Source: Silvibacterium dinghuense (GTDB lineage: Bacteria > Acidobacteriota > Terriglobia > Terriglobales > Acidobacteriaceae). Taken from it: a stretch of 64,000 nt of DNA. Below, in pieces: positions 46,784 to 51,456 of the stretch. The position numbers and the translations under genes were made by a program. The DNA lies in contig NZ_SDMK01000001.1 in NCBI RefSeq assembly GCF_004123295.1, positions 806,001 through 870,000 of the forward strand, given 5' to 3'. The notes below the pieces were generated by a model. That model did not search any database, was not told the origin of the DNA, and worked only from the letters and a program-made list of their open reading frames with translations. How positions within the stretch are numbered: the stretch's first letter is position 1; the number at the start of each line of letters is the position of its first letter.

Positions 46784-47332
46784 CTGCTCCGCGTCCGGCG
46801 ATCCGCTTCGCGTGGCGCTCCCTTTGGTCGCGATTTGGGGTCTGTGGGGTGGATCGGAAAGGGGTGCCCCATCCAAGCTCCGCTTGGGTGGGACGGTACG
46901 AACCTTCGTGACGCCTTTCTGCTGCGAACCCATGTCTCAGAAGCGAGACATGGGGCACCCGGGTCGTTCTTCTTAAAAGTCTTTGCGGAACTTGGCGTTC
47001 TTGGCGTCCTGGCGCGAAAGGGATGCGCGCAGATGCACGACTCCCTCTGTGCTCTCTGTGTCCTCTGTGGTGAATCGCCTTTGTGCTTCCCCACGCAAGC
47101 CAAAATCAGGCTTGCATGGACCACCGTAAATCTCAGCTCGCGACCAACGGGAGCGGCGGCCGAAGGCAAAAGGCCCGCACGGTCAGTGCCGCGACCAACG
47201 GAAGCGGAGGCCGAAGGCGTAAGGCCGGGACGGCAGTCCCCGAAGGCGATCCGGCCTGCGCGCAGCAGCCGGGACGGCCAGTCCCGGCGAGCACTTGATA
47301 TCCTGATTGGGTCTGGAGGAAACACCCCACCT
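46784..47332. repeat. Repeat-filled intergenic region (families A, B, C and 9-base tandem repeats)
   Basis: Contents in order: reverse family A (about 46790-46840); family B hairpin CCCATCCAAGC / GCTTGGGTGGG (46868-46892); a second B hairpin CCCATGTCTC / GAGACATGGG (46929-46954); 9-base tandem repeats CTTGGCGTT/CTTGGCGTC (46991-47016) and CTCTGTG at 47045, 47054 and 47063; family C (47097-47134, CAAGCC ... GGCTTG then ATGGACCACCG); and two joined forward family A copies (47133-47298). No credible gene. Confidence 0.68.
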
Positions 47333-48100
47333 ATGTTGAACCTGCAAGGAAAAGTCGCGGTCATCTTCGGCCTCGCCAATAAGCGCTCCATCGCCTGGGG
47401 CATCGCCCAGAAGCTGCACGAGGCCGGTGCCACGCTCGCCATCGGTTACCAGAATGAGCGCCTCAAAGCCGAGGCCCATCAGCTCATCACCGAGCTGCCC
47501 GGCTCCGATGCCTTCCAGTGCGATGTCGTCAACGACGCGGAGATCGAGCAGACCTTCGCGCTGCTCAAGGAAAAGTACGGGAAGGTCGATATCCTGGTCC
47601 ATTCCGTCGCCTACGCCATGGCCGACGATCTCAAGAACGACTTCTCGCTCACCAGCCGTGAAGGCTTCCGCACCGCGCTCGAGGTCAGCGCCTACTCGCT
47701 GATCGCGCTCAGCCGCGCCGCGGCCCCGCTGATGCCCGAAGGCGGCAGCATCCTGACGCTCACCTATTATGGTGCGGAGAAGGTCGTGCCCAACTACAAC
47801 GTGATGGGCGTAGCCAAGGCCGCGCTCGAGGCCAGCGTCCGCTACCTGGCTGCCGATCTCGGCAGGAAGCAGATCCGCGTCAACGCCATCTCCGCCGGCC
47901 CCATCAAGACGCTGGCAGCACGTGGCATCGGCGGCCTGAGCGACATGCTCAAGGCGCACGCCGACCGCGCTCCGCTGCACCGCAACACCGACCAGCTCGA
48001 AGTCGGGGGTACCGCTGCCTTCCTGGCCTCGGACCTGGCCAGCGGCATCACCGGAGAAGTCATCTACGTCGACTCCGGCTACAGCATCATGGGGTTCTAG
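47333..48100 (+). CDS. fabI: Enoyl-[acyl-carrier-protein] reductase (NADH)
   Basis: A 255-residue SDR-type reductase that completes each fatty acid elongation cycle; target of triclosan in other bacteria. Features: 'VIFGLANKRSIAWGIAQ' (NAD motif), 'DILVHSVAYAM', catalytic pair in 'NYNVMGVAKAALEA' (Tyr-x6-Lys), 'AGPIKTLAARGI' and 'GEVIYVDSGYSIMGF' at the end. Length matches FabI. GGAGGA lies about 10 bases before the ATG. The much longer open frame upstream runs through repeats and is not real. Confidence 0.95.
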   Translation: MLNLQGKVAVIFGLANKRSIAWGIAQKLHEAGATLAIGYQNERLKAEAHQLITELPGSDAFQCDVVNDAEIEQTFALLKEKYGKVDILVHSVAYAMADDLKNDFSLTSREGFRTALEVSAYSLIALSRAAAPLMPEGGSILTLTYYGAEKVVPNYNVMGVAKAALEASVRYLAADLGRKQIRVNAISAGPIKTLAARGIGGLSDMLKAHADRAPLHRNTDQLEVGGTAAFLASDLASGITGEVIYVDSGYSIMGF

Positions 48101-48259
48101 AGCGGAATCTGGGTAACCGTACCCTCCCCATATGGGTACATGTGTCCTTTTCTTGAGGAAAAGGACACGGAGAGATAGCGCCTCCGGATATATCTACCCG
48201 GATTCCGCTGGAACCTCACCGGCCTCGCGGCTGCGCTTCCAGCGCCGCGAGGCCGTTTT
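48101..48259 (+). ncRNA. Candidate structured RNA with terminator, downstream of fabI
   Basis: 48101-48115 pairs with 48195-48209 in a continuous 15-bp helix (one U-G wobble). Inside are three hairpins: GTACCC / GGGTAC (48119-48139), an 11-bp stem GTGTCCTTTTC / GAAAAGGACAC with loop TTGAG (48142-48168), and GGAG / CTCC (48169-48185). A terminator with an 11-bp stem GGCCTCGCGGC / GCCGCGAGGCC then GTTTT follows (48221-48259). The layout is a four-way junction, like a riboswitch or sRNA, starting right at the fabI stop. It could instead be a mobile miniature element. Family not recognised. Confidence 0.55.
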
Positions 48260-48300
48260 ACGCCCTTGCGCGTCTGCTATGCTGCCCACAACAGCAATCC

Positions 48301-49176
48301 ATGCGCATTCCGGCTCTGGCCCTTCTTCCGCTCGTTGTGCTCTCGGCCCCGGCCGAGAAGAAGCACCGCGCGGTCTTCTACTGGAACATGCGCCAGCAGG
48401 ATGTGATCTCCCTCGTCCATCACGTCCCCCAGAACGATGCCATCCGCCTCGCCCAGCTCCGCCAGACCTTCCACGACCTGCACTGTCTCTCGCCTGACAT
48501 CCAGGAGCAGCACTCGTCCCAGGGCGTTAATCTGCTCTGCCAGCTCCCCGGCGAAACTCCCGGCATGATCGTTGTCGCTGCTCACTATCAGCACATCGGC
48601 AATGGAGAAAGCGCAGTCGGCGACTGGTCAGGCAGCACCATGCTGCCCTTTCTTTACCATGCGCTCACAGCGCAACCCCGCCGCCACACCTATCTCTTTG
48701 CCGCCTTTGCCGGTGAAGACGGGGCCAGGGACTGGATGCGCAGCCTCACTTCCGATCAGCGCAAGCATATTCAGTACATGATTGCCCTGGACGCTCTCGG
48801 CCTCAGCCCTGTGAGCTTTTATCTCCACCCGCTCGACATGCACTTCACAGCAACGGAGACCACTCTAGTCGACACGCTGGAATTGTCGGCGCGCGAATCC
48901 GGCCTTCCGATACCGCAGCCACTCACCCCGCATCGATGGTTCCGCATCGATGACACGAAGCAGTTCCGGTATCGGAATATCCCCTCCATCGTGATCTATT
49001 CCGAAGGAGCCGACCACGGCACGCTGCCTGGCGGCGATCTGGACACCGCTGCCGCCATCCAGGATGACCTTTATTACGACACCTACCACCTGCTGTGCAC
49101 CTTCATCGCAGAGCTGGACCAGGTATCCGACACAGACAGTTTTTCCTCCAGCCCGCAGCGATTCCACATGTGGTGA
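48301..49176 (+). CDS. M28-like peptidase fold protein with altered metal site
   Basis: A 291-residue protein with an N-terminal hydrophobic stretch that may be a signal peptide. The M28 metallopeptidase pattern is recognisable: 'VVAAHYQHIG' (His95), 'GDWSGSTMLPFL' (Asp108), 'FAAFAGEDGARDW', 'ALDALG' and 'EGADHGTLPGGD' (final His). In standard M28 enzymes the first motif is HxD and the third has EE; here they are HYQ and ED. Activity may be changed or lost. It lies behind the structured RNA and directly before the glycosylasparaginase-like gene (39 bases), so the two may be co-transcribed. Confidence 0.75.
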   Translation: MRIPALALLPLVVLSAPAEKKHRAVFYWNMRQQDVISLVHHVPQNDAIRLAQLRQTFHDLHCLSPDIQEQHSSQGVNLLCQLPGETPGMIVVAAHYQHIGNGESAVGDWSGSTMLPFLYHALTAQPRRHTYLFAAFAGEDGARDWMRSLTSDQRKHIQYMIALDALGLSPVSFYLHPLDMHFTATETTLVDTLELSARESGLPIPQPLTPHRWFRIDDTKQFRYRNIPSIVIYSEGADHGTLPGGDLDTAAAIQDDLYYDTYHLLCTFIAELDQVSDTDSFSSSPQRFHMW

Positions 49177-51045: not shown

Positions 51046-51456
51046 ATGACCAAACTGATTCCAGCTTTCGTACTCGCCACATTTGCTCTTCCTCTTACTT
51101 CCGCCTTGGCCATGAGTGTTTCCACCTCTAACCTGGCGATGAGCCCCAGCAGCCCGCATCCGGTTCCGCCGCCTGCTCTGGCGATGAGCCCTGCCAGCCC
51201 GCATCCGGTTCCGCCGCCTGCTCTGGCGATGAGCCCTGCCAGCCCACATCCGGTTCCGCCGCCTGCTCTGGCGATGAGCCCTGCCAGCCCGCATCCGGTT
51301 CCGCCGCCTGCTCTGGCGATGAGCCCTGCCAGCCCGCATCCGGTTCCGCCGCCTGCTTTGGCGATGAGCCCTGCCAGCCCGCATCCGGTTCCGCCGCCTG
51401 CTCTGGCGATGAGCCCTGCCAGCCCGCACCCGGTTCCGCCGCCTGCTCTGGTTTAA
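51046..51456 (+). CDS. Secreted protein of seven tandem 15-residue Pro-rich repeats
   Basis: A 136-residue protein: signal peptide (residues about 1-21, 'FVLATFALPLTSALA'), an 8-residue linker, then seven copies of 'LAMSPASPHPVPPPA' and a final Leu-Val. The first copy has SPSSPH instead of SPASPH. No cysteine, no aromatic residue after the signal region and no recognised domain. Signal peptide, good ribosome site (TAGGAG) and terminator argue for a real gene. The repeats would form an extended polyproline-like chain. Function unknown; surface or secreted role inferred. The opposite strand is also open but has no start signals. Confidence 0.75.
   Translation: MTKLIPAFVLATFALPLTSALAMSVSTSNLAMSPSSPHPVPPPALAMSPASPHPVPPPALAMSPASPHPVPPPALAMSPASPHPVPPPALAMSPASPHPVPPPALAMSPASPHPVPPPALAMSPASPHPVPPPALV
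51133..51447 (+). repeat. Seven 45-bp tandem repeats inside the secreted protein gene
   Basis: Seven in-frame 45-bp units, nearly identical at DNA level, with isolated synonymous differences (such as CACATCC for CGCATCC in one copy and GCTTTG for GCTCTG in another). Such identity suggests recent expansion or gene conversion, so copy number probably varies between strains. Confidence 0.92.

Follow-up and report, generated by a model that had tools for sequence, protein, structure and literature searches.

We asked what the strongly folded DNA directly downstream of fabI in Silvibacterium dinghuense is. An earlier note on the window (the whole stretch of DNA that was analysed, 64,000 nucleotides of contig NZ_SDMK01000001.1) had preferred to read it as a cis-regulatory RNA of the following M28-like gene or as a free small RNA, and had named a miniature transposable element (MITE) as the main alternative. 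The two genes are as described there: fabI (enoyl-ACP reductase; PF13561, 4e-90) occupies 47333–48100 on the + strand, and the downstream gene carries a Peptidase_M28 domain (PF04389, 7e-9). As to the fold between them, the named alternative has prevailed, and we are highly confident that it is one copy of a mobile palindromic MITE that inserts at TA.

Anatomy of the window copy

The element proper measures 111 bp (48100–48210, + strand), as delimited by the own-genome matches to the whole model and by the match to a second covariance model, R2 (both described below). It begins with the left terminal inverted repeat GAGCGGAATCTGGGTA (48100–48115, +) and closes with the right terminal inverted repeat TACCCGGATTCCGCT, then G (48195–48210, +). 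Arm comparison and folding both confirmed the 15-bp helix with one wobble that had been noticed earlier: the arms at 48101–48115 and 48195–48209 are 15 nt long, 93% complementary with one T·G, and lie 79 nt apart. A seed-limited scan across the 64 kb found no second pair of 15-nt arms with one mismatch or none at a spacing of 60–100 nt. In the MFE fold of 48085–48275 the outer helix encloses three hairpins, as the earlier note had proposed, namely one of 6 bp, one of 12 bp (48142–48168) and a weak one of 4–5 bp, and a GC-rich hairpin follows. The 12-bp hairpin, GTGTCCTTTTC-TTGAG-GAAAAGGACAC (+), is the central hairpin of the element, assigned from fold, alignment and pair counts. The fold has an energy of −105.4 kcal/mol (z = −9.8) and none of 200 dinucleotide shuffles was as good. 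The reverse strand of the same segment is also well folded (z = −6.9); a good fold on both strands is expected of a DNA palindrome and was the first hint of one.

The end of fabI reads TTC-TAG-AGCGG, where the G at 48100 is the first base of the element, and the TAG stop thus consists of the left target-site dinucleotide TA (48098–48099, +) and this base. The TA was assigned from the sequence and from the TA duplication at other copies. The right dinucleotide (48211–48212) reads GA and is probably a decayed TA. R2 matched the window at 48098–48210 on the + strand (98.8 bits) and at 48100–48212 on the − strand (78.9 bits), and gave no match at E ≤ 1 elsewhere in the 64 kb.

A second, terminator-like hairpin (48220–48259, +) starts nine bases past the end of the element. 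It is GC-rich, its arms (48220–48231 and 48244–48255) form a perfect 12-bp stem and TTTT follows, so that this part of the earlier description stood; its attribution to the same structured candidate did not, since the hairpin is a separate flanking feature and the unit is 48100–48210 plus the TA at 48098–48099. A terminator scan of 47200–48700 did not list the hairpin because the scan requires 5 T in 8. It is perhaps fabI's own old terminator, which the insertion would have displaced downstream.

Two further features of the window were observed. Upstream of fabI, two 44-nt direct repeats (CGCGACCAACGGGAGCGG...) lie within 47139–47233 with an inverted partner at 46806–46833, and may represent another dispersed repeat. 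At 51046–51456, a short protein with near-identical proline-rich repeats (ALAMSPASPHPVPPP) had no Pfam match.

A strong fold is also what would be seen in a dedicated structured RNA under selection for RNA structure, either a small RNA or a 3'-UTR or 5'-leader element regulating the M28-like gene. No Rfam family reached its gathering threshold in the window, and the two families that had been suggested, Acido-1 and Acido-Lenti-1, were absent from the four Rfam hits obtained up to E 10 in 48000–48400; at 16 other loci, the only Rfam match was a tRNA. Nor did a single scan of 47200–48700 yield a sigma-70-like promoter. These results argue against a dedicated RNA, as do the copies and empty sites described below.

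Copies in the genome and in relatives

A BLAST search of the own genome with 48095–48265 found 12 places. None of the other 11 matches extended beyond query position 115 (48209), which places the terminator-like hairpin outside the repeat. R1, a covariance model made from 11 own-genome copies, the window's among them, found 15 full-length matches in the same genome (weakest E, 0.011); one further BLAST place, C1:1963910, is partial and was excluded from alignments A1 and A2. Most copies are ∼110–118 bp long (roughly 112) and a few are longer; they are imperfectly palindromic, with terminal repeats of ∼16 bp that contain GAATC in this genome. One own-genome locus (L095) holds an enlarged copy. 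Six copies form a young group, 94–98% identical to their own consensus; the window copy, with 75% identity to that consensus, belongs to a more diverged group. Judged by their flanking sequences, the copies sit in differing surroundings, and both strands match R1 and R2.

Among 120 genomes, 13 (own included) had R1 matches at E ≤ 0.1, two of them from a second family of the same order. R2, which was built from the alignment also used for the model-fitted pair counts (A4), matched 16 (own included) of 396 genomes in the phylum at E ≤ 0.001, all within the own family; as this survey scored nine candidates per genome, it gives minimum copy numbers. A search of 84,980 species, with one genome each, for a single exact form of the ends hit five stretches, whose sources were two Granulicella genomes and two MAGs with the label Acidobacteriaceae. 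No similar DNA was found in plasmids and phages, and R2 had no match in 50 kb of S. meliloti pSymB, a weak test.

The end sequences are specific to a genome or subfamily (e.g. GCATTTTCGGAAA, GCGGATTCACGAT, GCAGAATCACAGT, GCATTTCTCCTGT and GCAAAACCAGGG). Length and the pairing of the ends are constant across subfamilies, and the central hairpin is present in most copies, its stem sequences differing. Two of the genomes, G016 and G514, are rich in such ends: the G016 terminal repeat had 174 matches with at most two mismatches (control, 21) and the G514 repeat 35 with at most one (control, 0).

Several single copies are unusual. Locus L275 (G016:C34:27560-28060) combines the usual G016 ends with another core and another central hairpin, as though subfamilies could swap ends and cores. 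L058 (G002:C169:8971-9128) is a copy enlarged to 158 nt by an extra GC-rich hairpin within the core. At L122 (G082:C77) the end of another element directly precedes the copy, as if one element had inserted at the other's end, and at L094 (506–619 and 623–695; G000:C3) the copy ends three bases from a tRNA gene.

Empty sites and the TA target

Has the element moved? Two sister species (G269 and G208) share one copy, with flanks 95–96% identical, and 11 loci were compared there: one filled, seven empty and three without a call. In the seven genomes of the same genus with an empty site (G437, G261, G336, G533, G472, G502 and G217) both flanks meet at a single TA, so that the empty site reads ...GACTA|GCAGAG... 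and the filled one ...GAC-TA-element-TA-GCAGAG. Insertion is therefore precise and duplicates TA, and the element is accordingly a MITE that duplicates its TA target. Extraction from 19 places in G514 gave 17 copies of 110–113 bp, 13 of them flanked by TA on both sides; in another count, TA was found at 122 of 150 ends, a few bases of slack being allowed. The element is thus short, has terminal inverted repeats, occurs in dispersed copies, and shows TA duplication and empty sites, as a MITE does. At ∼110–118 bp it is too short to hold a transposase gene.

The earlier note had itself held that many copies with target-site duplications would favour a mobile element; both were looked for and both were found. 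The dispersal of the copies in varied surroundings, the matches on both strands and the precise empty sites all speak against a dedicated RNA.

The window copy has the left TA only, and an empty form of its locus was not seen: when the locus was sought through fabI–M28 synteny in the genus, the M28 relatives were mostly 40–46% identical with no FabI beside them, and FabI was absent by tblastn (E ≤ 1e-5) within up to 1.5 kb on each side of six genus loci with M28-like relatives.

The exact TA duplication also bears on a third reading, a REP/BIME/REPIN-type repeat mobilised by the single-strand transposase RAYT, to which the palindromic form, the frequent position at gene 3' ends and the genome-specific sequence versions would be suited. 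Y1/HUH transposases are not known for duplicating TA exactly. Moreover, no GTAG/CGTC tag was seen by eye at the ends, and the outer arms pair together rather than as two separate REP hairpins. A REP/RAYT origin is thus very unlikely.

Conservation of the fold

The covariance search in acidobacterial genomes, which the earlier note had put forward, did reveal compensatory changes in the stems of the homologues. In the model-fitted alignment (A4, 64 rows from 40 loci, many copies being entered as both strands), 31 of 35 pairs had changes on both sides and 89.5% of cells were paired, whereas all sliding controls fell to 39–48%; for the central hairpin (helix 3) the figures were 10 of 12 pairs and 94.3% of cells, and all these counts are inflated because both strands were counted and the alignment was fitted to the model. 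A model-free alignment and fold of 30 oriented copies (A6, 30 of the 42 rows of A5) gave 14 outer pairs, 11 of them with changes on both sides; the central hairpin, a region in which the alignment slips, was not recovered. Stem pairing is thus maintained between lineages and subfamilies by compensatory change, and active lineages seem to need the fold.

We also compared the central stem with the linkers among copies of one genome. In G016, 26 copies chosen by their ends (both ends among 100 of the 174 matches listed; L275 excluded) had 18 changes in 624 positions of the central stem versus 72 in 1066 of the linkers (p 0.0005), or 12/598 versus 47/1014 when columns with more than four changes were removed (p 0.006) and 21/648 versus 84/1107 when L275 was added (p 0.0002), all of these p values being too small as the copies share ancestry. 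Twelve G016 copies not listed by the model gave 14/288 versus 29/492 (p 0.63), in a sample that favours poor folds because it was chosen for absence from the model listing. In G514, the 17 copies had 11/306 changes in the central stem and 25/731 in the linkers (p 0.85). Among model-selected copies, changes per site and copy were 0.012 in the central part versus 0.059 in the rest for G016 (19 copies) and 0.057 versus 0.100 for G082 (11 copies); the six young own-genome BLAST copies gave 0.024 versus 0.045. Single changes in central pairs kept the pair in 11 cases and broke it in five in G016, and in two versus nine cases in G514.

A central stem that changes more slowly than the linkers, as in G016, would be expected if the fold were protected in place. 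Protection of single copies after insertion is therefore possible in G016 as far as these changes tell, while G514 shows no such difference. The strong covariation that outer stem and central hairpin show between genomes and the slow G016 stem are, with the fold itself, what a dedicated RNA would have in its favour; given the G514 central stem, which is not slower, together with the dispersed copies, the two-strand matches, the empty sites and the Rfam and promoter results, we consider a dedicated RNA very unlikely.

For the MITE, the covariation can be seen in another light. Across genomes, many outer-stem pairs swap among A-U, U-A, G-C and C-G, while length, end pairing and central hairpin stay; replacement of the pairs within a constant layout would fit an enzyme that reads shape. 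It is conceivable, though doubtful, that the element is recognised mainly by its shape, the enzyme reading a folded, perhaps single-stranded, element and leaving a DDE-like TA duplication.

Search for the mobilising enzyme

A transposase acting in trans would recognise the ends of the element; TA targets are characteristic of IS630-like enzymes and of certain IS5-like ones. We asked whether an autonomous element with the same ends is present. In the own genome, none of the 49 end matches lay head-to-head 0.5–5 kb apart, and reading 17 of the 33 stray matches outside known copies revealed no longer element. No autonomous element was found among the 100 of 174 end matches listed in G016, where one pair of ends among those listed, 2.6 kb apart, encloses an arylsulfotransferase-like gene. 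In G514 none was found in all 35 end matches, and at the two loci with a single listed end (L249 and L250, 6 kb each) there was no transposase in the seven ORFs scanned of 27 (≥120 aa).

A DDE_3 transposase occurs in four of six genomes, with none in the own genome or in G070. Of 15 DDE_3 loci, 10 were scanned for ends, and only L147 has ends of its own, TACCAATTTG..., which are unlike those of the MITE. DUF4096 (IS5-type) is present in three of nine genomes at five loci, where ends are different or none were recognised; at one of these, L266 in G016, the ends GGGCGTGTCATCAAA lie beside CTA/TAG and resemble the MITE in their first bases only. PF13358 and PF13340 were tried as mobilising families, and the loci scanned had no matching ends. 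At L269 (467–580; G016:C20), ∼0.9 kb away from an IS5-type match (DUF4096), we observed a palindrome of ∼114 bp that has the ends TAGAGCGTGTTTCAAA / TAGAGCTTGTTTCATAA and lacks the usual central hairpin; its ends are faintly like those of L266 in the same genome. The terminal repeats of the element differ strongly between genomes, to a degree that is uncommon within a single MITE family. This variation and the lack of an autonomous element among the matches read, like the missing right TA and the unseen empty site at the window and the slow central stem of G016, count against the MITE explanation.

Insertion at stop codons

Does the position in the fabI stop codon recur? Of 61 element ends of the TAA/TAG type, 26 terminate an open frame of 100 codons or more, compared with 197 of 1426 TAA/TAG triplets in the flanks, a control that includes true gene ends. 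Insertion into stop codons thus looks over-represented, probably through the survival of harmless insertions. Most G016 copies start TAC or TAT, so not all insertions are of the stop type. One candidate case, a G269 insertion restoring the stop of a gene, was rejected: the frame is open for 52 codons only, and a possible ATG follows shortly after the site.

At the window, the anatomy suggests that the element entered the TA of fabI's TAG stop; as its first base is a purine, TA plus this base again reads as a stop. The fabI mRNA would then carry the fold in its 3' end, ahead of the terminator-like hairpin, and effects on the stability of the message would be possible by analogy with Correia and ERIC.

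This raises the question whether the MITE was co-opted at this site, where it might stabilise the message or act as an RNase III/E site in the 3' end of fabI, a reading compatible with the MITE explanation. Lying between the fabI stop and the terminator-like hairpin, the element should be transcribed, and its fold is near-perfect despite its place in the diverged group at 75% identity to the young consensus. ERIC and Correia are described as altering message stability (PMC10969869, PMC2229807), and the slow central stem of G016 adds slightly to the case. On the other hand, the right TA is lost, the sequence has diverged, and some other diverged copies fold well too. We regard co-option as unlikely.

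Relation to known elements

Finally, we asked how the element compares with known small repeats. RUP of Streptococcus pneumoniae is similar in being 107 bp long with terminal inverted repeats and a TA target (PMC2229807); RUP ends resemble those of IS630-Spn1, whereas our element, among the matches read, had no IS counterpart sharing its ends, which vary strongly between genomes. ERIC (IRU/RU-1) of enterobacteria, of 127 bp (RU-1, PMC2759123), likewise has TA at its termini (PMC2229807) and can sit at a gene's 3' end and affect the mRNA (PMC10969869). ERIC has 7 bp of contiguous terminal pairing (PMC2229807), whereas our element has 15–16 bp and a separate central hairpin, the two being compared by description only. 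Correia/NEMIS of Neisseria also has TA termini, in forms of 107 and 155 bp, and is described as having 24-bp terminal repeats and transcripts processed by RNase III (PMC2229807, PMC10969869); it differs in that its hosts belong to a different phylum, and that neither a promoter (one sigma-70 scan) nor an IHF site is among the features described here for our element. CIR of Caulobacter and Brucella is close in length (∼110 bp), TA termini and GANTC (PMC2229807), as own-genome ends have GAATC, but it folds into two arms and a linker with no 5'-3' end pairing, while the ends of our element pair. The two-arm fold with exposed GANTC was not seen here: GAATC lies in the outer stem, and in some subfamilies only. 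QMITE2 of Coxiella burnetii is also a MITE, found mainly in 3' untranslated regions and between genes; it differs in length (150–190 bp), variable direct repeats of 7–11 nt and a contained REP (PMC5896051). In its workings the element resembles ERIC, Correia, RUP and other small TA-inserting elements (PMC2229807, PMC10969869). We found no published description of this family in the open literature, where subscription papers are mostly missing.

Young copies are present in the family, yet among the matches read no mobilising element shared its ends. Where the element restores the stop, an insertion into a stop codon can do no harm. A strong fold and strong covariation between genomes need not mean a functional RNA, since the same signal arises from a MITE in which ends and core change in concert; empty sites in sister species can distinguish the two.
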